Assembly: GCA_013002225.1 (NCBI GenBank)
Contig: JABDKL010000214.1
Location: 1 to 42,548 of the forward strand
Length of the DNA: 42,548 bases
Direction: 5' to 3'
Origin: Winogradskyella sp.
GTDB lineage: Bacteria; Bacteroidota; Bacteroidia; Flavobacteriales; Flavobacteriaceae
The stretch's first letter is position 1; each line of letters starts with the position of its first letter. A model generated the notes under the pieces. The model searched no databases and had not been told where the DNA came from. It was given only the letters and a program-made list of their open reading frames with translations. Below, piece after piece: positions 23,508-33,531 of the stretch. Both the position numbers and the translations under genes were made by a program.

Positions 23508-25781
23508 TTACTCATCTTCTTTTTTTATAGTGGCAGGCTCAACTGAGCTGTCGTGCGAACTATAATATTCCTCTAATAAATTCATCGTTGCGGTTAGCAG
23601 ATCCTTAGTTTCTAAAAGCAAACTAAAGTACAACGTTGTGTTTTTAGGACTAGACTCTTCGGTTCTTGTTCTAGCAACTTGTTTTACAATTTTTTCCGTA
23701 ACAATATCAAACAATTCTTTTTTACGGGTAATGATCGAGCCAATCTGTTCGAACGAATGCGAATCGAAAGCTTGCTTGGTGTTGTTAAACAATATTTCGA
23801 GGGTGTCATCAACTTCCTTAAGCTCTTTTATCTGGCTGAATTTAAGTTTTTTATGATTGTTGTTTATATGTTTATGGCTCACTTTAGAGATATATTCTAG
23901 AGACTGAGTCATATCCGTCAAATACCCTAAAATATTTATATAAAAACTACTGGCACGTACACTGGTATCATCTAGATTTTTAATGAAGTAAAATATGTTA
24001 TCACGTAAGCTATCTACTTCTTTAGATAACTTTTCTATTTGTTTTTTATTTTTCTTAAGTAAGTCTAAATCTTGTTTAGCCAAGCCGTTGACGGCATTAG
24101 TGTATATTTTATTACCACGTTTTACAACGTTAGAAATGTTTGCAGCACTTTCTAAAATCACACCCTGAACAGAGCTACTACCTGTTTCTTTTAGGCTATC
24201 TTCCTCAGCCACTTTATTAGAAGATGTTTTATGAGACTTGTAGTTTCTGTATAGTAAAAATGCCGTTATTAATAGTAATATAGGAATCATTACGGAAGGA
24301 TTCCAGTTTATTAAAAATACCACAGTACCCGCCGCAATAAATGCGCCCAAAGCCGTGCCAAACCAACCGCCTATAACATTAAGTACACCAGCAACTCTAT
24401 ACACCGCACTTTCTCTTCCCCAAGCCCTGTCTGCTAACGATGTACCCATTGCTACCATAAATGTAACATATGTGGTAGATAAAGGTAGTTTCATCGAAGT
24501 TGCAATTGCAATTAATACTCCTGCTACCATTAAGTTTACCGATGCCCTAATCATATCAAAAGCAGGAGCATCTATACTTTGATCTTTAGTTATTAGCACG
24601 TCTGGTTTTTGGAAACTATTATTAATTTTGCTCTGAATTGAATTAGGTATAATAACACCAAAATAATTAGATAATTGAGTGGTTCCTTTAACAACGGATC
24701 TAGACAGTGCATTTGGTTCAAATTTTTCATGCGTGTCTCCTTGTCTAGATAAACTAATTTCTGTTTCGGCAACTGTTTTTGCCTTTTTAGATAACCATAA
24801 TGTTAATACCATAATGGCACCAGCGATAAATAGCAGCAATGGTTCTGCAGGAACTTTCTTGTCTAATACAGCCATGGACATGGTTGCATCCATACCTCCT
24901 GCAACCCAGGCTTCATAAGAGTGGTAGGCTGCCATTGGCACACCAATAAAATTCACTAAATCATTTCCAGAAAAGGCTAAGGCTAATCCAAAGGTTCCTA
25001 CACCAATAACAACTAATAGCACAGTTTTCTTCGTTAGTTTTTCAAAAATAAATGAAAACAAGGTCCAAAAAATAAAACTACCAAGTATGATATAAACTTC
25101 GTTGCCCTCTACCATATCTTTTAATTCACTATAATATGGCGTGCCTTTTAACCCTTTTAAGAAAATAAAATAGGTGATAGCTGTAAGAGCCACACCACCA
25201 AATAGGACACCAAAATTCTTAATTTTATTCTCATAATTAAATGTAAACACCAGTCTTGACACCCATTGTACCAGGGCACCTACTGTAAATGCTATTAAAA
25301 CAGATAATAAAATTCCGCTAATTATGGTGAGTGCAGTATCAGTAGCGATATAATTTCCTAAATCGGCCAATGTCTCAGTCTCTGATTGATTTATTTTTAA
25401 TATAGACATAACTACGGCCGCACCTAATAGATTGAAAACAATAGATACCGTTGTAGAAGTAGGTAAGCCAAGCGTATTAAAGAAATCTAATAATAAAATG
25501 TCCGTTATCATAACGGCCATAAAAATTAACATAATCTCACCAAACTCAAATTGAGCAGGCACAAAAATTCCTTTTCTGGCAACCTCCATCATTCCGCTAG
25601 AGAACACGGCTCCAATAAAAATACCTAAACTCGCTACAATCATTATTGTACGTAACGAAATTGCTTTAGAACCAATGGCAGAGTTTAAGAAATTAATAGC
25701 GTCATTACTAACACCAACTATAATGTCGAATACAGCTAATACTGTAATTGCAATTAACATTAATAAGTATATATTATCCAT
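23508..25781 (-). CDS. PiT family inorganic phosphate transporter with C-terminal PhoU-like helical domain
   Basis: 757 aa. The first ~525 residues are a PiT cation-phosphate symporter: the first signature VGVSNDAINFLNSAIGSKA (23-40), a central cytosolic loop, and the second copy FSGNDLVNFIGVPMAA (270-285); SLADRAWGRESAVYR follows near residue 470. After the last membrane segment comes a Lys/Glu-rich helical domain (about 545-757, e.g. QIEKLSKEVDSLRDNIFYFIKNLDD) resembling PhoU/DUF47 regulators that in other bacteria are separate pit-partner proteins. It follows the porin gene by 78 bp but has its own candidate promoter with the direct-repeat box. Confidence 0.93.
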   Translation of the reverse strand: MDNIYLLMLIAITVLAVFDIIVGVSNDAINFLNSAIGSKAISLRTIMIVASLGIFIGAVFSSGMMEVARKGIFVPAQFEFGEIMLIFMAVMITDILLLDFFNTLGLPTSTTVSIVFNLLGAAVVMSILKINQSETETLADLGNYIATDTALTIISGILLSVLIAFTVGALVQWVSRLVFTFNYENKIKNFGVLFGGVALTAITYFIFLKGLKGTPYYSELKDMVEGNEVYIILGSFIFWTLFSFIFEKLTKKTVLLVVIGVGTFGLALAFSGNDLVNFIGVPMAAYHSYEAWVAGGMDATMSMAVLDKKVPAEPLLLFIAGAIMVLTLWLSKKAKTVAETEISLSRQGDTHEKFEPNALSRSVVKGTTQLSNYFGVIIPNSIQSKINNSFQKPDVLITKDQSIDAPAFDMIRASVNLMVAGVLIAIATSMKLPLSTTYVTFMVAMGTSLADRAWGRESAVYRVAGVLNVIGGWFGTALGAFIAAGTVVFLINWNPSVMIPILLLITAFLLYRNYKSHKTSSNKVAEEDSLKETGSSSVQGVILESAANISNVVKRGNKIYTNAVNGLAKQDLDLLKKNKKQIEKLSKEVDSLRDNIFYFIKNLDDTSVRASSFYINILGYLTDMTQSLEYISKVSHKHINNNHKKLKFSQIKELKEVDDTLEILFNNTKQAFDSHSFEQIGSIITRKKELFDIVTEKIVKQVARTRTEESSPKNTTLYFSLLLETKDLLTATMNLLEEYYSSHDSSVEPATIKKEDE

Positions 25782-25804
25782 AATTTTTATTTAAAATAAG
25801 TTTG

Positions 25805-25848
25805 CAAATATCAAAAGACAAATTAATTATAACGTTATCTAATTGTTA
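25805..25848 (-). promoter_or_regulatory. Candidate phosphate-responsive promoter of the PiT gene
   Basis: On the minus strand: TAAC-N7-TAAC (25834-25848), 21 nt, then -7 element GATATTTG (25805-25812). Same spacing as the porin, small-RNA and TonB-receptor promoters. Confidence 0.55.
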
Positions 25849-25859
25849 TTTTATAGTGA

Positions 25860-27065
25860 TTAAAAATGAATATCAAATCCTAATCTAAACATAATGTTTT
25901 CGTCATTTCCATCTAATGCCGAATAACTAATATCGGACTGAACTTTTAATTTATGTCCAACAATATATTTTGACGCTCCCAAGGTAAATTGCTTTCTTGG
26001 TAAAGTATTAGTAACCGCTTCATAATCTACCGTGGTATAACGAGCTGCAATTTCGTAATTATTTTTAAATAAATAACCGACTTGTAAATTTAAGGCATTT
26101 CCTGTTAACACAATATCTCCAGTTGGTGTAACACCATCGGCCTCGGTTGCTACTTCGTCATCTGCCGTACGATTAGCATATTCTCCCATAAAAGAGAAGC
26201 CATTATATTTAAACATGGCATCCGCAAAAATTGTAGTTTGGTCTGTCTCATAGATTGTGCCGTCGGTTCTAATCATATAATCACCAGCAAATCCTCTTTC
26301 TCTCACCGCGTCTTGATTGTAGTTGTAAGTAAAACCTACCATTAATTTTGGCTTCTCTTCTCTTTTTAAATCAGATTGACTGTAATCGCCTTTAGATTTA
26401 AACGTGCCGAATGGTAAAAATTCTAAACGAGCTGTATATTGTAAACCTCCCTCATTACCTTCGGTAACATTTCGACCTTCTCCTTGAGATACTGCAAATT
26501 TTTCTCGCATTAAAAAATTACCACCAAGGTTGGTTTTATGACGTAATTGAATACCCAAATCTCGGTCGATATTAAATCGACTGTTTAGCAACGAACGGTT
26601 TATAAATTGAAGATTACCAGAAGACACTACCCGCTCTACGTTACCAGGAAGTTTTGTTTGTCCTGCCCATAACTCCCAGTTTCCTGAGAAATTCCACATA
26701 ATTACGGCATCAAGGATGTAGCGAGGTGTATTTCTATTAAATTGATTGGCACCCGAAATATCTCTATTAGACAGACCGAGCTCTATTTTATACTTTAACT
26801 TTGGACTATAGGCAAAACCATCGAACTTTAATCGTGCTCTTCTAACTATAAAGTTATGTTCTGGGCTACCATATTGATTACCGTCGTGATCCCAGGATGA
26901 AATTGAACGAACTTGAAAACGAGGTGCAAATTTCACACTAAAAGAGCTGTCTTTTGCTGTAAAATTAATTAAGCCCTTACCAAATGAGGTGTCACTGATT
27001 TCTTGAGAGTTAACTGATGCTAATACAAATGCAGCAACAGTTAATAACTTAAATTTAAGTTTCAT
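25860..27065 (-). CDS. Outer-membrane porin of the OprO/OprP phosphate-selective family
   Basis: 401 aa. Signal peptide 1-20 (KLLTVAAFVLASVNS), then alternating beta strands to the end with the C-terminal outer-membrane signature IMFRLGFDIHF ending in Phe. Family marks include FIVRRARLKFDGFAYSPKLKYKIELGLS, WELWAGQTKLPGNVERVVSSGNL and FNIDRDLGIQL. OprO/P porins pass phosphate or polyphosphate through the outer membrane; here the PiT transporter gene lies directly downstream, so outer- and inner-membrane phosphate entry are paired. Candidate -7 element GTTCTTTG at 27088-27095 with the repeat box upstream. Confidence 0.93.
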   Translation of the reverse strand: MKLKFKLLTVAAFVLASVNSQEISDTSFGKGLINFTAKDSSFSVKFAPRFQVRSISSWDHDGNQYGSPEHNFIVRRARLKFDGFAYSPKLKYKIELGLSNRDISGANQFNRNTPRYILDAVIMWNFSGNWELWAGQTKLPGNVERVVSSGNLQFINRSLLNSRFNIDRDLGIQLRHKTNLGGNFLMREKFAVSQGEGRNVTEGNEGGLQYTARLEFLPFGTFKSKGDYSQSDLKREEKPKLMVGFTYNYNQDAVRERGFAGDYMIRTDGTIYETDQTTIFADAMFKYNGFSFMGEYANRTADDEVATEADGVTPTGDIVLTGNALNLQVGYLFKNNYEIAARYTTVDYEAVTNTLPRKQFTLGASKYIVGHKLKVQSDISYSALDGNDENIMFRLGFDIHF

Positions 27066-27087
27066 TTATTATTAGTTTTTGTCGCTG

Positions 27088-27131
27088 CAAAGAACTTCCA
27101 TATTTAAAACATAAATGTTTCCTTAGTGTTA
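27088..27131 (-). promoter_or_regulatory. Candidate phosphate-responsive promoter of the porin gene
   Basis: Minus strand: TAAC-N7-AAAC (27117-27131), 21 nt, then -7 GTTCTTTG (27088-27095). On the plus strand the same sites read as two adjacent 11-bp units (27113-27134), AAATGTTTCCT and TAGTGTTAAGT. Confidence 0.6.
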
Positions 27132-27140
27132 AGTTTTTAC

Positions 27141-27169
27141 AAAAAAAAACCGCCTTGGCCAAAGGCGGT
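27141..27169 (-). terminator. Intrinsic terminator with no gene upstream of it
   Basis: GC-rich 8-bp stem (ACCGCCTT/AAGGCGGT), 5-nt loop, followed on the minus strand by nine U (A run 27141-27149). It stands 76 nt upstream of the porin ATG on the same strand. Confidence 0.8.
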
Positions 27170-27239
27170 CATTAGAATTCATGATAATTAGTCGACAAAA
27201 ACTAATAGATTATACGAAACTAATAGGTCTTATAAGACA
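27141..27239 (-). ncRNA. Candidate small RNA (or attenuated leader) upstream of the porin gene
   Basis: A complete minus-strand transcription unit with no ORF: -7 element TACATTTG at 27243-27250, predicted start near 27238, and a terminator at 27141-27169. The transcript would be about 98 nt. It begins with the palindrome GTCTTATAAGAC (27227-27238), holds two copies of CTATTAGTTT 18 nt apart, a hairpin ATTAGT/ACTAAT, and ends in the terminator hairpin. If polymerase reads through, it becomes a long leader for the porin mRNA. Not recognised as a known RNA family. Confidence 0.5.
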
Positions 27240-27242
27240 AGA

Positions 27243-27286
27243 CAAATGTATGCGAGTCATTTAATTACTGTGTAATCTTAGTATTA
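27243..27286 (-). promoter_or_regulatory. Promoter and direct-repeat box of the candidate small RNA
   Basis: Minus strand: TAAT-N7-TTAC (27272-27286), 21 nt, then exact -7 TACATTTG (27243-27250). The box sequence ACTTAATACTAAGATTACA matches that of the porin promoter, ACTTAACACTAAGGAAACA, at 15 of 19 positions. Confidence 0.55.
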
Positions 27287-27354
27287 AGTAATTATTAAAC
27301 ATTCTGTATTTAAATTAAAACATAAACACACTGAAAAACAATATTTTAGATGTC

Positions 27355-27398
27355 TAATGTAAATTTAATGTTAAGTAAATGTTGTTTAAATATTAACA
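27355..27398. repeat. Four tandem 11-bp units upstream of the YwqK-like gene
   Basis: TAATGTAAATT, TAATGTTAAGT, AAATGTTGTTT, AAATATTAACA, directly adjoining. They end 6 bp before the -7 element and cover the -33 site. The second and third units closely match those upstream of the TonB receptor gene (32080-32112, minus strand). Confidence 0.55.
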
Positions 27399-27412
27399 AA
27401 CCTCTATATTTG
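27382..27412 (+). promoter_or_regulatory. Full consensus promoter for the YwqK-like gene
   Basis: TTG at 27382-27384, 20-nt spacer, TATATTTG at 27405-27412; leader of about 28 nt. Confidence 0.75.
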
Positions 27413-27443
27413 AGTAGTAAGTAACTATTAATACCCATTAATT

Positions 27444-27809
27444 ATGAACAAGAATGTTTTAATGTTGTTCGCTTTTTTTATCGGTATAATTTCATTTGCT
27501 CAGCAAGAGAGAGCATTAAAAATTAACAAAGACACCAATTTAATTGATGTTGTTTATTATCACGACAATGGAGTAATTAGCCAATTAGGCTCTTATACTT
27601 TAGATGGCAAACTACATGGTGAATGGTTTAGTTTTGATACTGACGGGAACAAAAGTGTTGCAGCGAATTATGATAATGGGAAAAAAGTCGGCAAGTGGTT
27701 TTATTGGACAGATAAAACTTTAAAAGAAGTAGATTATACAAATAATGCTATTGTAAGCATTAGTGACTGGCAAAAAGATTCGAAGAAATCAGTCGCAATA
27801 AGAAATTAA
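27444..27809 (+). CDS. Small secreted YwqK/MORN-like repeat protein
   Basis: 121 aa. Signal peptide 1-19 (MLFAFFIGIISFAQ), then short repeats of the YwqK/MORN kind: VVYYHDNGVISQLGSY, LDGKLHGEWFSFDTDGNKSVAAN, YDNGKKVGKWFYWTDKTLKEVD. Such proteins are very common in Flavobacteriaceae and have no established function; some relatives in the databases carry misleading enzyme names. The context, between phosphate-uptake genes and beside 11-bp repeats, suggests co-regulation with them. It ends at a shared terminator. Confidence 0.8.
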   Translation: MNKNVLMLFAFFIGIISFAQQERALKINKDTNLIDVVYYHDNGVISQLGSYTLDGKLHGEWFSFDTDGNKSVAANYDNGKKVGKWFYWTDKTLKEVDYTNNAIVSISDWQKDSKKSVAIRN

Positions 27810-27826
27810 GAAAACATTAATCGAAT

Positions 27827-27857
27827 AAAAAAGCACCTATTAAAGGTGCTTTTTTTA
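27827..27857. terminator. Bidirectional terminator between the YwqK-like and beta-helix lipoprotein genes
   Basis: 12-bp stem AAAAAAGCACCT/AGGTGCTTTTTT, 5-nt loop, with A run on the left and T run on the right. Confidence 0.9.
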
Positions 27858-27874
27858 TTTTAACAATTAATAAT

Positions 27875-29074
27875 TTAATTACCCACTGTCCATCCTGCTC
27901 CCCAAGACGTAAAGTCTGTACCTGTACCATTCCCAACACCAGATAGGAAGTCAGAGTCTGCAAAGGTATCGCCAGTATCATTTTTCACCTGTAGCGTTAC
28001 ATCTGTAAAAGTAACATTAGTTACCGATAGGTCTCCGTTAATTACACCTGTTCCTGTCGGATTAGTGCTGCTAGCACCTGCATCGCCATCTAGATCAAAT
28101 CCTTCTGCAAATCCTTCTAACAACACATTGGTAAAAAGACCTTGTGTACCTGCTCTTAATCTTATAGCTTCATTTCCTGTGCCAGATCCATTACCTACAA
28201 TAGTTAAGTTGGTTACTATAGGCTTAGACCAAAATATAGGGTTAGAGTTGTTACCGATATCGGTGTTGTAACCATCGGCTTCAATACCTTTGTCGTGTTC
28301 TGCACCATGTTGAACATGTGCATTGGTAATACTACCAGAATATCCTTCTGTCCAATCTATAGAATCATCTTGAGCATTGACTACAGATACAAAATCTACA
28401 TTTACAGTTCCTCCAAAAAATTCGACACCATCATCTTTACCTTCAAAAACTTGTATATACTCAACAGTAGTACCGTTACCTACACCGTAAAAAGATATAC
28501 CATTATTTTCAGATTGGCCATCTGCAGATCCTCCAGAATACTGTACTCTAACATATCTTAATACACCAGAATTGTCAGACACATCCGTTCCGCCATATGG
28601 TAGACTTGCAATTTCTGAAGTTGCAGTTGCCGTACCAGTAACAGAATTTATTGGTGCATTTCCCAATAGAATTAATCCTCCCCAATCACCAGCCTGTGGT
28701 GCTGCAGAATCTGACGTTAATATTATTGGGTTGTTTGCATTACCATTTGCGATAATTTGCGCACCACTAGAAATAGCAATATAAACATCAGAGCCAGAAG
28801 ATACAGCTTCTATCACCATACCAGCGGGTATGGTTAAAGTTGTTCCGGCAGTCATGATTAGCGCTCCATCTACTTTATATGTAGTATTAGCATCTAAGGT
28901 CAAATCTTCTGTATATGTACCAGATAAAAATACGGTACTTGGGTTTGTAGTACCACCACCATTATTGTTGGTTACACTATTGTCATTAATGATAATATCA
29001 GCAGTATCATCTGTTGTGCAAGAGTTAAGAAGCATCCCGAAAACAGCTAAGCCTAAAATTAATTTATTTTTCAT
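27875..29074 (-). CDS. Surface beta-helix lipoprotein paired with a TonB receptor
   Basis: 399 aa. Lipoprotein signal MLLNSC with lipid cysteine at residue 19, followed by TTDDTAD: acidic residues just after the cysteine resemble the Bacteroidota surface-export signal, so it probably faces outward. After a Asn/Gly linker comes a right-handed parallel beta-helix-like region with repeated short strands: DGALIMTAGTTLTIPAGMVIEA, GAQIIANGNANNPIILTSD, the GDWGGLILLGNAPIN motif, LRYVRVQYSG, VEYIQVFEGKDDGVEFFGG, DSIDWTEGYSGS. There is no SusD-like helical fold. It is 35 bp downstream of the TonB receptor gene, and is probably its substrate-binding or processing partner. The substrate is unknown. Confidence 0.82.
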   Translation of the reverse strand: MKNKLILGLAVFGMLLNSCTTDDTADIIINDNSVTNNNGGGTTNPSTVFLSGTYTEDLTLDANTTYKVDGALIMTAGTTLTIPAGMVIEAVSSGSDVYIAISSGAQIIANGNANNPIILTSDSAAPQAGDWGGLILLGNAPINSVTGTATATSEIASLPYGGTDVSDNSGVLRYVRVQYSGGSADGQSENNGISFYGVGNGTTVEYIQVFEGKDDGVEFFGGTVNVDFVSVVNAQDDSIDWTEGYSGSITNAHVQHGAEHDKGIEADGYNTDIGNNSNPIFWSKPIVTNLTIVGNGSGTGNEAIRLRAGTQGLFTNVLLEGFAEGFDLDGDAGASSTNPTGTGVINGDLSVTNVTFTDVTLQVKNDTGDTFADSDFLSGVGNGTGTDFTSWGAGWTVGN

Positions 29075-29109
29075 TTTGATCTTTAATTTAAGTTCTAATT
29101 AATGTTCGT

Positions 29110-31965
29110 TTAAAATTTATATTTGAGTTGAAGACCTATACTCAGCCCTCGCTTATAGTCTGTTACATCTTTACCATTTGGTGAGGTTACCAAAACATCG
29201 CCAACAGAAGTGCCCTCTCTAAAATATTGAATGGTTGGATTTAGTAAATTTCTAATTCCGAGATTTAATTCCATCTTATTATTTAATTGGTTCTTAAGAA
29301 CAAAATCTAAGGTGGGAATGCCTTTTTCAATTACATTACCTAATTGCCCAGAGCCTAAAGCATCAATTCTATCTGAGAAATAAGAACATATAATATTGGC
29401 TGTAGGCTTATAATTACCAATTTGAGGCGAATAGTTAAGATCTGCGTTTAAGATGATTGGTGAAGCTCCCTGCAACTCTTCTTTATTCTTATTAAAGCTC
29501 ACACTATACGTTCCGATTATTGTTTCATACAAATCTTGTTTGGTATGCATGTACGTAAAGTTTAATCCTGCGGAAAGCTTGGCCTCTTCTTTGTCATCAT
29601 ACATAAGGAAGTTTTTTCTAATTTCGGCTTCAAAACCTAAAATTTCGGCTTGCTCACCTGTTCTAAAAAAGCGTTGTGTACCTGTAGCATCAAATGCAAC
29701 CACCTGATTAACCGGATCTTTTATTTGCTTATAAAAGGCACCTACAGAAAACAATTCTGTCTTACTTATAAACCATTCGTATTTTAAGTCTAGGTTTAAA
29801 ATTTTTGAGTAGGATACATCATTAACGTTTGTATATGCAATGTCATTTGTTGTTCCTAATAAATCGGGATTACCACCAATTCGTTGCGAAATACTCTCAT
29901 AAACAAATGGTGCCACTTCTTTAAATTCTGGAAGCGAAATTGACTGGCTTGCAGAAAATCGTAAATTTTGGTCTTCTTTTATGCCGTACTTTATGCTTAA
30001 GCTAGGTAAGAATATGGTTTCGTTAGAACTAATAGAGCTGTTACCTGCTGCTCCCAGATTAATGACATCGTAAGCGATTTCTTGATTTATGTTTTCAATT
30101 CTCACACCTGGTACAAATAACCAGGTATCACCTACATTTAATTCTGCATTTGAATAACCAGCATATATATCTATGTTTCCGTTATACGTATTTTCAGAAA
30201 GCCCAGGTCTATTGGTGTTGCTTAGACCAGGAAAATTATTGATTACTTTAATTTCATAGGCGCCATTGCCACTATTGCCAATATTTAAATTATCTAAAGT
30301 AAAAAAGCTATTTAGGTCATTTACATTGGTAATTGGGGTATTAGCTTCTATCAAGTCGTAGCCGTATCTAATATTATCAAATTGTCTTTCTTTAGTTCTA
30401 CCAGCAAAACCAACATTAATCTTTAAGTTTTCTTTTGGGTTGTAGGATAAATTTAATCTGCCATTAAATTCGTCATCATAGATATTTTGAAAATAACGTT
30501 GGTTATCAAAAACTACGTTGCTATAAAATGAAGGAAGAGTAGAAGCGTCATTATCTAATGCAAACTGATAATTTTCTACACTAATACGTTTTCTGTCGGG
30601 CTCATGAGCATTAACTACATTGTAGCCAATTCCCCAATCTAACTCGTAAAGATTGTCCTTAAATTTATGACGACCAGTAAACTGATTAACAAATATTAAA
30701 TTTTGATTAAACTGCACATTCATCTGGTAAAACCCCTCGTCTGTATTAAGTATGGCATCTCTGTTTCTACCCGAACCATCTATACCAAAATAACCAACCT
30801 TATCTGAAGCATTATTGATGAATAAGGAATTAAATTTTATAGAATGTGCGCTGTTAATTTTATAATTAACAGAAGCCATTGCTGTAGTTTTGGTACTATA
30901 CTCAAACTCTTCGGCGTCTTCAAAAGCTTTCTTTTCTACGTTGGTATAATCTACGTTAGATCCTCTGCGATACGCAAAACCATTTTCGAAGGATCCTGTG
31001 CCGTAAAAGCTTATTCGAGATCCGTTTTCAAAATCAAAAGATTTTCCAAAAGCACCTCCAAAAGAGACATCAATCGGCGTTTCTGCTTGTTGAGGATCAA
31101 AACCATGAGATAATACTACGGCAAAAGGATTATTGTCGTACCTATTATAATAACCAAAATAACTGGTGCCTTCACTTCTAAAGAATGTTTTATCAGCAGC
31201 GTTTGTGTTTACAGAAGAACCAACATTAAAATCAAAAAAGCCATTCCCTTTATAATCCTTTGAAGAAATATCTACATTACCAGCGGAGAAATCTCCAAAA
31301 AATCGAGAAGAATAGGCTTTGCTTATAGAAACATTCTCAATAATGTCTGAAGAGAATAAGTTTAAGTCAATATTCTTCTTATTTACATCATTAGAGGGTA
31401 ATGACAAGCCATTCATGGTTGTATTAAGATAACGATCTCCCAACCCTCTTACATAAACATTACTAGAACCTTCTTGCTTTGATACTCCCGAAATTTTGGC
31501 TACTGCACCTGCGGCATCACTAACACCTTTTCTAGAGAGTTCGTCTGCGCCAATACTCTGCTTTATTTCGACAGCCTTTTTCTGGTCTAACAATAAGGCG
31601 GCTTCACTTTCCTTACGGGTTGTGGTTGTAATTACAATCTCATCCAGGCTGGCAGCACTAGCACCCATCATTACATTTAGTGTAGTTACTTTATCTGACT
31701 CAACATTCACTGTTATTTCTTGAGTTTCATAACCTACAAAACTAAAAATCAAAGTGTAGGCTCCCGGAGCTAATGCTTCAAATTGATATAAACCGTCTAT
31801 ATCTGAGGTCGTCCCTGTTGTTGTTCCTTTAATTAAAATATTAGCAAAGGGAAGCGGTTCGTCATTATATTCCTTATCAATTAATTTACCAGAAATAGAT
31901 CCTGTATTCTGGGCAAATAAGAATGATGTAATTAATAATAAAATTACTATAGGTATACGTTTCAT
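29110..31965 (-). CDS. TonB-dependent outer-membrane receptor with N-terminal CarboxypepD_reg-like domain
   Basis: 951 aa from the ATG at 31965, which begins a clean signal peptide (RIPIVILLLITSFLFAQ); an upstream in-frame ATG at 32025 would bury it and lies upstream of the promoter. Domains: carboxypeptidase-regulatory-like beta sandwich (about 25-105, GSISGKLIDKE ... YTLIFSFVGYETQEI), plug (about 120-260, with SNVYVRGLGDRYLNTTMNG), then a 22-strand barrel ending in LSIGLQLKYKF. It takes up an unknown nutrient across the outer membrane using TonB energy, together with the adjoining beta-helix lipoprotein. It carries the same promoter box as the phosphate porin and PiT genes. Confidence 0.93.
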   Translation of the reverse strand: MKRIPIVILLLITSFLFAQNTGSISGKLIDKEYNDEPLPFANILIKGTTTGTTSDIDGLYQFEALAPGAYTLIFSFVGYETQEITVNVESDKVTTLNVMMGASAASLDEIVITTTTRKESEAALLLDQKKAVEIKQSIGADELSRKGVSDAAGAVAKISGVSKQEGSSNVYVRGLGDRYLNTTMNGLSLPSNDVNKKNIDLNLFSSDIIENVSISKAYSSRFFGDFSAGNVDISSKDYKGNGFFDFNVGSSVNTNAADKTFFRSEGTSYFGYYNRYDNNPFAVVLSHGFDPQQAETPIDVSFGGAFGKSFDFENGSRISFYGTGSFENGFAYRRGSNVDYTNVEKKAFEDAEEFEYSTKTTAMASVNYKINSAHSIKFNSLFINNASDKVGYFGIDGSGRNRDAILNTDEGFYQMNVQFNQNLIFVNQFTGRHKFKDNLYELDWGIGYNVVNAHEPDRKRISVENYQFALDNDASTLPSFYSNVVFDNQRYFQNIYDDEFNGRLNLSYNPKENLKINVGFAGRTKERQFDNIRYGYDLIEANTPITNVNDLNSFFTLDNLNIGNSGNGAYEIKVINNFPGLSNTNRPGLSENTYNGNIDIYAGYSNAELNVGDTWLFVPGVRIENINQEIAYDVINLGAAGNSSISSNETIFLPSLSIKYGIKEDQNLRFSASQSISLPEFKEVAPFVYESISQRIGGNPDLLGTTNDIAYTNVNDVSYSKILNLDLKYEWFISKTELFSVGAFYKQIKDPVNQVVAFDATGTQRFFRTGEQAEILGFEAEIRKNFLMYDDKEEAKLSAGLNFTYMHTKQDLYETIIGTYSVSFNKNKEELQGASPIILNADLNYSPQIGNYKPTANIICSYFSDRIDALGSGQLGNVIEKGIPTLDFVLKNQLNNKMELNLGIRNLLNPTIQYFREGTSVGDVLVTSPNGKDVTDYKRGLSIGLQLKYKF

Positions 31966-31987
31966 TAGTTCAATTTCAATTGTGGTG

Positions 31988-32031
31988 CAAAGAAACTGTG
32001 ATAATGTAATTTTTAGGTTAATCAAAAATTA
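31988..32031 (-). promoter_or_regulatory. Candidate phosphate-responsive promoter of the TonB receptor operon
   Basis: Minus strand: TAAT-N7-TAAC (32017-32031), 21 nt, then -7 TTTCTTTG (31988-31995). The arms also form a perfect inverted repeat GTTAAT/ATTAAC at 32017-32033. Confidence 0.5.
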
Positions 32032-32050
32032 ACTCTACGTGATAAAATAG

Positions 32051-32112
32051 TTAGTTTAACGTTACCTCTGTATTAACCAACTTTAAATTAAAGAAACGTT
32101 TACTTAACATTA
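32051..32112. repeat. Further 11-bp repeat blocks between the TonB receptor and dgt
   Basis: Plus-strand block TTAGTTTAACG, TTACCTCTGTA, TTAACC (32051-32078), then on the minus strand three units at 32080-32112: TAATGTTAAGT, AAACGTTTCTT, TAATTTAAAGT. The first two of the latter match the YwqK-like upstream units. Confidence 0.45.
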
Positions 32113-32190
32113 CACGTATTAAAATAGGAGTCTTACTTTTTGAGTAATTCTATGTCAATTTATATATCTTGCATGAGTTAAATTTTTACT

Positions 32191-33531
32191 ATGAATTGGG
32201 AGCAACTATTATCCTTAAAGCGTTACGGTGACAGCAATAAAAGATTAAGAAAAGAACAAGATGAAACCCGTTTGGGTTTTGAGGTTGATTACGACCGTAT
32301 TATATTTTCTACTGAATTTAGAAGCCTACAAGACAAAACGCAAGTTGTTCCTTTGTCTAAAACAGATTTTGTGCATACCAGATTAACACATAGCTTAGAA
32401 GTTAGTGTAGTAGGTAGATCTTTAGGTAGAAAGGTGGGTAAGTTGCTCTTAGAAAAGCATCCGCACTTAAAAAATATTCATGGTTATAATATGAATGATT
32501 TTGGAGCCATAGTTGCGGCGGCATCCCTAGCTCACGATATTGGAAATCCGCCTTTTGGTCATTCTGGTGAGAAAGCTATAGGATCCTATTTTAAGAATGG
32601 AGAAGGAAGTGAGTTTAAAAGCCATTTAACAGATAAGGAATACCAAGATTTATGTGATTTTGAAGGTAACGCCAACGGATTTAAAATACTTACCGAAAGT
32701 AGAGAAGGAAGATTAGGAGGGTTGCGGTTAAGCTACGCGACACTAGGCACATTTATCAAATACCCAAAGGAGTCGCTACCTAAAAAACCAACAAGTCATA
32801 TTGTAGATAAAAAGTATGGTTTTTTTCAGAGTGAAACTCAAATGTTTAAAGATATTGCTTCAGAATTAGGGTTGTTAAGCCGAAGCGCATCACATTTAAG
32901 TTATCATAGACATCCATTAGCTTTTTTAGTAGAAGCAGCAGATGATATTTGCTACACTATTATAGATTTTGAAGATGGTATTAATTTAGGTTTAATAGAA
33001 GAAGAATATGCTTTAGAATACCTTATTAATTTAGTTAGAGATAAAATTAAAACAGAGAGCTATAATTCGCTAAAAACAACTCAAGACCGTGTGAGCTATC
33101 TCAGAGCTTTAGCCATAGGAACGTTAATTGATGAGGCTGTGGCACTTTTTATGAAAAATGAGGAAAGTATTTTGTCTGGTAATTTTGAAACTGCATTGCT
33201 GGATGTTAGCCAGTACAAAGCACAAATTAAAGACATTATAGATATAAGTGTTAAGAATGTTTATCGGTCTAAAGAAGTAATTAATAAAGAAATTGCTGGT
33301 TATGAAATATTAAACCAGTTATTAAATGCCTTTTGTAAAATGGCATTTAACGCTTACGAAGATCGTATGTCTAATTACGATAAATTACTACTGCGAACCT
33401 TACCTCAAACGGTTAACTTGTCTAAGGAATCTTTATATGACAGTTTAATTGCCGTGTGTCTTTATATCTCAAAACTATCAGATACTAATGCGATGTTATT
33501 GCATAAGCAATTGAAGGGTAATATTTTATAA
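32191..33531 (+). CDS. dgt: Deoxyguanosinetriphosphate triphosphohydrolase (dGTPase)
   Basis: 446 aa HD-domain protein. Hydrolyses dGTP or other dNTPs to nucleoside and triphosphate, balancing dNTP pools. Metal site: His67 in RLTHSLEVSVVGRSLG, His115-Asp116 in SLAHDIGNPPFGHSGE, and an Asp at 251/252 in EAADDICYTIIDFEDG. The N-terminal DYDRIIFSTEFRSLQDKTQVVP is typical. Ends in HKQLKGNIL. No exact -7 element was found; TACTTTTTG about 50 nt upstream is one base too long. Confidence 0.95.
   Translation: MNWEQLLSLKRYGDSNKRLRKEQDETRLGFEVDYDRIIFSTEFRSLQDKTQVVPLSKTDFVHTRLTHSLEVSVVGRSLGRKVGKLLLEKHPHLKNIHGYNMNDFGAIVAAASLAHDIGNPPFGHSGEKAIGSYFKNGEGSEFKSHLTDKEYQDLCDFEGNANGFKILTESREGRLGGLRLSYATLGTFIKYPKESLPKKPTSHIVDKKYGFFQSETQMFKDIASELGLLSRSASHLSYHRHPLAFLVEAADDICYTIIDFEDGINLGLIEEEYALEYLINLVRDKIKTESYNSLKTTQDRVSYLRALAIGTLIDEAVALFMKNEESILSGNFETALLDVSQYKAQIKDIIDISVKNVYRSKEVINKEIAGYEILNQLLNAFCKMAFNAYEDRMSNYDKLLLRTLPQTVNLSKESLYDSLIAVCLYISKLSDTNAMLLHKQLKGNIL

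Follow-up and report, generated by a model that had tools for sequence, protein, structure and literature searches.

A candidate Pho box shared by phosphate uptake genes and a putative porin-repressing small RNA in Winogradskyella sp.

Detailed inspection of a 42,548-bp stretch of Winogradskyella sp. DNA (contig JABDKL010000214.1; the whole stretch is referred to below as the window) revealed four minus-strand transcription units of a phosphate locus that are preceded by a common promoter element. Judging from related genomes, this element is very probably the Pho box of the Flavobacteriales, since its register is shared by the four promoters and the box also precedes pstS elsewhere in the order. 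One of the four units is predicted to encode a small RNA (sRNA) complementary to the 5′ end of the mRNA of the adjacent porin gene. We consider it likely that the box activates both the phosphate uptake genes and this dedicated, porin-repressing sRNA, which would constitute an incoherent feed-forward loop. The sequence comparison shows (i) the shared register of the box, (ii) its presence upstream of pstS in other genomes, (iii) the structure of the sRNA, (iv) its conserved complementarity to the porin leader and (v) the co-occurrence of the sRNA and the porin.

Gene content of the phosphate locus

The minus strand of the locus encodes (i) a TonB-dependent receptor with a CarboxypepD_reg-like domain (positions 29110-31965; 951 aa; PF13715, PF07715, PF00593), (ii) downstream of the receptor, a lipoprotein-like, beta-helix-like protein (27875-29074; 399 aa), which matches no Pfam or NCBIfam family and whose character is our own reading, (iii) an OprO/P-type porin (25860-27065; 401 aa; PF07396, E 3.9e-13) and (iv) a phosphate transporter of the PiT family (23508-25781; 757 aa; PF01384, E 2.4e-28). 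A small gene for a MORN-repeat-like protein (27444-27809, plus strand; weak Pfam matches below the cut-off) is placed between the sRNA and the lipoprotein gene. The lipoprotein and MORN-like genes are separated by a strong hairpin with T-runs (27827-27855), which could be a two-way terminator.

Common architecture of the four promoters

The initial annotation proposed a single layout for the four promoters, namely two half-sites 11 bp apart, 21 nt and a -7 element ending in TTTG, and this proved right to the base. All of the following sequences are read on the minus strand. The Pho-box-like element of the PiT gene (25834-25848) is TAAC-N7-TAAC, starting at 25848 and followed after 21 nt by the -7 element GATATTTG (25812-25805). 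That of the porin gene (27117-27131) is TAAC-N7-AAAC, from 27131, with the -7 element GTTCTTTG (27095-27088). In the sRNA promoter, the element (27272-27298) consists of three half-sites 11 bp apart, TAAT-N7-TAAT-N7-TTAC, the last two of which (from TAAT at 27286) form the common pair; the -7 element is TACATTTG (27250-27243). The TonB receptor gene is preceded by TAAT-N7-TAAC (32017-32031, from 32031) and the -7 element TTTCTTTG (31995-31988). The distance from the box to the -7 element is thus fixed, with a spacer of 21 nt in all four promoters.

The literal pattern NAAY-N7-N[AT]AC-N21-NNNNTTTG has five matches in the window, compared with a mean of 1.28 and a maximum of 5 in 100 dinucleotide shuffles. 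Four of them are the promoters, and the fifth falls within the TonB gene on the opposite strand. With five matches against 1.28 expected, the literal pattern alone is weak evidence; since the letters alone are only modestly above chance, relatives were examined. These were obtained by a porin search over 60 genomes together with a named search (108 relatives, of which the best 80 were kept), and represent Winogradskyella, Psychroserpens, Olleya, Lacinutrix, Bizionia, Gaetbulibacter, Ulvibacter, Patiriisocius and other genera; several genomes of the genus of the window duplicate contigs of named Winogradskyella records. The extraction rules required a -7 element of the TTTG type, and the promoters were aligned on the end of TTTG. 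The loci not counted among the 81 are those in which these rules yielded no such promoter, and the TonB class comprises only loci whose receptor has its own promoter.

Within the window and the 80 related loci, the half-sites (NWAY, WWAY) occupy the exact register, as tandem 11-bp direct repeats, in 231 of 252 extracted promoters: 68/80 for the porin, 60/67 for the sRNA, 68/70 for PiT and 35/35 for TonB, window included. When the pattern is shifted by 1-5 bases, at most two promoters per class retain it, except for PiT at -5 (12/70). Extra half-sites occur at the same 11-bp phase at -55 in the sRNA promoters (62/67) and at +11 in those of the porin (58/80) and TonB (24/35). The +11 half-site is absent from the porin promoter of the window itself.

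Occurrence of the box upstream of pstS and other genes

A weight matrix comprising the two half-sites and the -7 element was trained on the four promoter classes only. It was applied to pst operons of other Flavobacteriales because no PstS was found in the genus of the window: among the 10 above-cut-off PF12849 matches that were read, from 60 genomes, none was recognised as PstS. In total, PF12849 gave 21 matches in 20 of the 60 genomes; those 10 look, in our reading, like LysR-type regulators, and the other 11 are weaker. A search for pstC in 119 genomes of the order gave 15 matches above the curated cut-off. One locus (L184), in which pstS is cut off, was omitted, the same gene being read from L213. 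An earlier selection rule, which yielded seven pstS genes and left other pstS genes among the controls (p = 0.0008), was replaced.

The proposal that the shared element is a Pho box was borne out beyond the training set. Ten of 14 readable pstS promoters score at least 9, whereas the 41 remaining ORFs of these loci do not exceed 6.2 and have a mean of -5.8 (Mann-Whitney p = 5e-8). As some of the loci are closely related, the effective number is smaller. The fit averaged over pstS peaks at a period of 11 bp and a spacer of 21 nt, with a mean of 10.1 compared with 3.2 for the next-best combination. A fifteenth pstS, from a member of the family of the window (G115), scores 15.6. Against this, pstC of the same operon, in a locus outside the 41 controls, also scores 10.8, and four of the 14 pstS promoters fall below 9, one of them at -0.4.

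In the background set, none of 215 ORFs (some mutually related) and one of 750 shuffles reach 9. Three of the 27 ORFs of at least 150 aa in the window stand out (21.0, 28.5 and 31.3), all belonging to the units discussed here, and the next scores 4.1. The porin loci are not a clean control set, as 41 of their 386 untrained ORFs score at least 9. In our reading, 39 of these 41 are part of the phosphate locus, comprising 26 cases of the beta-helix lipoprotein gene preceding TonB, eight PiT genes missed in training and five genes for other lipoproteins of the locus; two are unrelated. In five loci (L047, L049, L066, L070 and L088), other secreted lipoprotein genes, with box scores of 12-18, are located between the TonB and porin genes, and hence the content of the locus varies while the switch stays.

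The initial annotation proposed looking for the box upstream of pst and phosphatase genes, among others. It precedes pstS in other genera, whereas neither of the two full-length PhoX genes of the genus (L160 and L161) has a box within 260 bp. Full-length PhoX is present in two of 60 genomes, and partial matches above the cut-off occur elsewhere (19 in all). With no PstS recognised and two full-length PhoX proteins in the 60 genomes, PiT may be the main phosphate importer of the genus.

Candidate regulator of the box

Two OmpR-type regulators were found in the genome (95% complete). One is PhoB-like and adjoins a PhoR-like kinase; the pair is encoded on another contig, outside the phosphate locus of the window (G000:C168:33851-35662, locus L182). 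The regulator gene, whose start codon is probably GTG, overlaps the histidine kinase gene. In NCBIfam, the two proteins match PhoB and PnpS/PhoR best, in each case under the curated cut-offs (for the response regulator, 216.7 against the PhoB cut-off of 296.2, and 210.8 against 270). No convincing box was found upstream of the PhoB-like response regulator gene.

The sRNA gene, its predicted structure and distribution

The initial annotation described an orphan short transcript between the TonB operon and the porin gene; the common promoter layout which it assigned to this transcript is present, while the complementarity to the porin mRNA had been missed. This transcript is predicted to be a conserved sRNA of about 98 nt (27141-27238, minus strand) with its own promoter and an intrinsic terminator. 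It comprises (i) a 5′ hairpin, (ii) a central stem-loop exposing the seed and (iii) the terminator (27141-27168, minus strand). The start of the sRNA predicted from the -7 element falls on the base at which the 5′ hairpin begins. The segment complementary to the porin leader, ATTAGTTTTTGTCG (27193-27206, minus strand), includes the central loop UUUGUC, whose probability of being unpaired is about 0.82 over 68 sRNAs. The sRNA is not a cis-antisense RNA of the porin gene: it is encoded on the same strand, upstream.

In an alignment of 36 sequences, 15 pairs of the structure show double changes, with 62 such cells against 22.9 +- 5.8 after shuffling, although the structure was derived from the same 36 sequences, which favours it. 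Two stem pairs of the terminator have 16 double changes each. Every measure falls when the structure is slid along the alignment. The apical helix holding the seed shows no double change in the 36 sequences; as the apical seed and the 12-mer were used to choose the loci, their invariance is partly a matter of choice. A covariance model matches the sRNA of the window (27141-27242) with 94.9 bits, by construction, since this sequence is in the model. None of the 4227 families of Rfam 15 matched this interval, even at E values up to 1 (positions 25000-33000 searched).

Of the 81 loci, 76 carry the seed upstream of the porin gene. One of the remaining five (L068) is on a contig that begins inside the gene; the other four have readable upstream DNA without the sRNA, and their porin leader is decayed in two cases (L054 and L097) and near-intact in two (L058 and L105). 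Among 37 genomes of the genus, the sRNA was found in all 16 with an orthologous porin (at least 70% identity) and in none of the 21 without it. The positive genomes give at least 53.9 bits and the best of the other 21 gives 40.3. The covariance model holds sequences of the genus, so that the positives arise by construction and the absence from the 21 genomes, scored under the stricter filters of Infernal, is the informative part.

Complementarity of the sRNA to the porin leader

The predicted 5′ end of the porin mRNA leader, CGACAAAAACTAAT (27071-27084, minus strand), terminates 5 nt before the AUG and is a perfect complement of the sRNA segment: from its predicted first base (27083), the leader (C)GACAAAAACTAAT is exactly complementary to ATTAGTTTTTGTCG over 14 bp. 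The mean duplex energy of the native pairs is -20.2 (n = 76 loci), compared with -18.8 when partners are swapped between species, and none of 5000 permutations was as low. Shuffled porin leaders gave -7.1 +- 2.3 (best single shuffle -20.3). The leaders of 504 other ORFs of the same loci, a control that still includes the porin of L077, gave -8.4 +- 2.8; three of them reach the mean of the native pairs, all located before a Na/Pi cotransporter gene. In four loci (L059, L076, L102 and L108) the start codons were misplaced, and the leaders were anchored on the motif for the final duplex mean. Such anchoring selects the core, and only the extension of the pairing and the swap test therefore count.

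At position 5 of the extension, the pair is T-A in 53 loci and A-T in 10, i.e. 63 paired against 47.7 expected. Positions 3, 4, 7, 8 and 9 pair slightly above expectation and position 6 slightly below (55 against 57.0). Two loci (L101 and L103) carry compensated variants of their own, as single cases. These data indicate that the complementarity is conserved, with signs of coevolution, although the compensatory changes represent few independent events, partly shared by one clade. In seven loci (L039, L044, L075, L078, L081, L083 and L085) the run of A in the porin leader is six long rather than five, but the sRNA still has five U; a bulge in the duplex is then unavoidable.

Other predicted targets of the sRNA

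Three of nine Na/Pi cotransporter genes in the porin loci (L047, L049 and L075; genes assigned by our own reading) have a leader nearly identical to the target site of the porin, with a core mismatch in L049. These sites, found in Gaetbulibacter and two further Flavobacteriaceae, lie on the opposite strand, kilobases away from the porin target site. In the genus of the window, none of nine Na/Pi leaders (L115-L123; seven of them of the same type) contains the site. The cotransporter was therefore rejected as a general second target, and its site is regarded as lineage-specific.

The exact 12-mer has four matches in the genome itself, corresponding to the porin leader, the sRNA and two sites inside genes. 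In relatives, it stands before the ATG of some open frame at 7 of all 32 further sites of sRNA-positive genomes and at 7 of the 29 sites (28 stretches) read in sRNA-negative ones. No gene recurs among the 12-mer sites of the sRNA-positive genomes, and several sites preceding an ATG are inside longer frames. The leaders of the TonB genes were discarded as targets, their pairing being weak and uneven. In distant porins (30-52% identity), no complementary stretch of at least 10 was found in the seven loci scanned.

Proposed regulatory module and alternative explanations

We propose that, under phosphate limitation, a PhoB-type response regulator would bind over the -33 region to 11-bp-phased half-sites near TTAACA, with 21 nt between the second, key one and the -7 element, and would recruit the main polymerase to the genes of (i) the PiT transporter, (ii) the porin, (iii) the TonB receptor with its lipoprotein and (iv) the sRNA of about 98 nt just upstream of the porin gene. 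The UUUGUC loop would initiate pairing at the 5′-terminal bases of the porin mRNA (GACAAAAACUAAU), and the duplex, ending 5 nt before the AUG, would block ribosome entry. The porin and its repressor would rise together, and with deepening starvation the porin would be capped or switched off, whereas PiT and the TonB receptor would remain active. The binding of PhoB, the expression of the units, their transcription starts, the response to phosphate and repression as the sign of the interaction are what we infer from the genomes. Co-activation is the natural reading because the sRNA and the porin both have the box at the same register, and repression is likelier than stabilisation because the pairing site fills nearly all of the predicted 18-nt leader. 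Activating a repressor together with its target is, however, not the simplest logic.

Several alternatives have to be weighed against this module. GACAAAAACTAAT might be a DNA site for some regulator, present in one orientation within the sRNA gene and in the other where the porin transcript starts, with no RNA pairing involved. The partly palindromic sRNA segment (TTAGT..ACTAA) and a core that hardly varies would suit such a site, but we consider this explanation highly improbable: native pairs outperform swapped ones and some changes are compensatory, the site is part of the mRNA leader, immediately ahead of the AUG (in three loci it also precedes the Na/Pi transporter gene), and in the sRNA it falls within the loop exposed by a conserved stem-loop, the outer helices of which covary. 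It is also unlikely that the sRNA arises by attenuation as the 5′ leader of a long porin transcript, in which read-through would let the seed fold back in cis on the porin start. The two pairing segments do lie on one strand, about 110 nt apart and with a terminator between them. However, a separate box and -7 element are situated between this terminator and the leader in the 80 extracted porin promoters, so that porin mRNA would be expected to start mostly at the leader, and the Na/Pi transporter sites are kilobases away on the other strand.

If the pairing is real, its effect could still be positive, the duplex covering the 5′ end of the porin mRNA and protecting it against decay. The first nucleotide predicted for the mRNA is also the first of the paired segment, and co-activation of the sRNA and its target would then be coherent; of the alternatives considered here this seems to us the least implausible, though still doubtful, because the duplex extends to within 5 nt of the AUG and the predicted 18-nt leader leaves little room for initiation. 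A position 5 nt from the AUG is inside the ribosome footprint. As to the regulator, the box could be read by an OmpR-family protein other than PhoB, in which case the regulon would not be controlled by phosphate. The PhoX genes of two members of the genus, which have no box, would agree with this, as would the PhoP motif of Riemerella, noted as ArcA-like (PMC9603813). We give this little credence, as two OmpR-type regulators were found in the 95%-complete genome, one of them PhoB-like beside a PhoR-like kinase, and the box precedes pstS in other genera and families.

Significance and comparison with known systems

With this element, a concrete and exactly spaced Pho box becomes available for a large marine order, which lets phosphate regulons be predicted in genomes lacking Pst. 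The repressing module, if true, would add a phosphate-regulated sRNA with a conserved target; to our knowledge, few sRNA targets are known in Bacteroidota. We suggest, with less than even confidence, that this incoherent feed-forward module is driven by PhoB and new for Bacteroidota, with a dedicated sRNA that captures the first nucleotides of the porin mRNA, and that in the few relatives with the Na/Pi site the sRNA would switch the cell from passive and low-affinity to active uptake during phosphate stress. No description of this box architecture or of the sRNA was found in the open-licence literature searched; related papers report on the targets of PhoB, on predicted boxes or on a half-site, and such a full architecture was not found among them.

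The DAP-seq motif of PhoP of Riemerella anatipestifer, a member of the same order, has TTTAACA as its most conserved bases, matching the half-site described here, and PhoP binds before a TonB receptor gene in gel shift (PMC9603813). No repeat period, promoter spacing or sRNA is given in the part of that report cited here. PhoB of B. fragilis binds the pstC promoter in gel shift, with no motif given in the cited part of the study (PMC3547664). Low phosphate strongly induces a TonB receptor and a lipoprotein encoded beside phoBR in F. johnsoniae (log2 8.0 and 9.9), while OprP is not induced (-1.3, value 0.245) (PMC8115612). If, as we assume, the genes of the window are orthologues of these, a flat OprP beside a rising receptor and lipoprotein would fit a porin that is held down in starvation. 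The terms promoter and small RNA are absent from the main text of that description of the PHO regulon (PMC8115612). Pho boxes have also been predicted from sequence, like that of the window, before plcP genes of marine bacteria, in a study with a flavobacterium among its strains and with no consensus given in the cited part (PMC4796936). The Bacteroidota -7 element is TAnnTTTG, located at -12 to -5 in flavobacteria, and the same source describes Rfp18 of Flavobacterium psychrophilum, a conserved sRNA with predicted targets among metalloproteases and an adhesin (PMC9723704). Like Rfp18, the sRNA of the window is a conserved flavobacterial RNA predicted to pair with mRNA through a stem-loop, but the targets differ (PMC9723704).

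The element appears to be a new Pho box variant, and the sRNA a new family that would act like porin-repressing sRNAs. The classical Pho box, bound by PhoB of E. coli and PhoP of B. subtilis, consists of 11-bp direct repeats over the upstream promoter element, before pst and uptake genes. The box described here likewise comprises at least two direct repeats of 11 bp in this position, before pst and other phosphate uptake genes. The core of the E. coli box is TGTCA, whereas that of the window is near TTAACA and is locked 21 nt upstream of the Bacteroidota -7 element. MicF and MicC are porin-repressing sRNAs that pair at the translation start of outer membrane porin mRNAs. In contrast to these, the sRNA of the window is apparently dedicated to its predicted target, and is encoded directly upstream of it, on the same strand and behind the same box.
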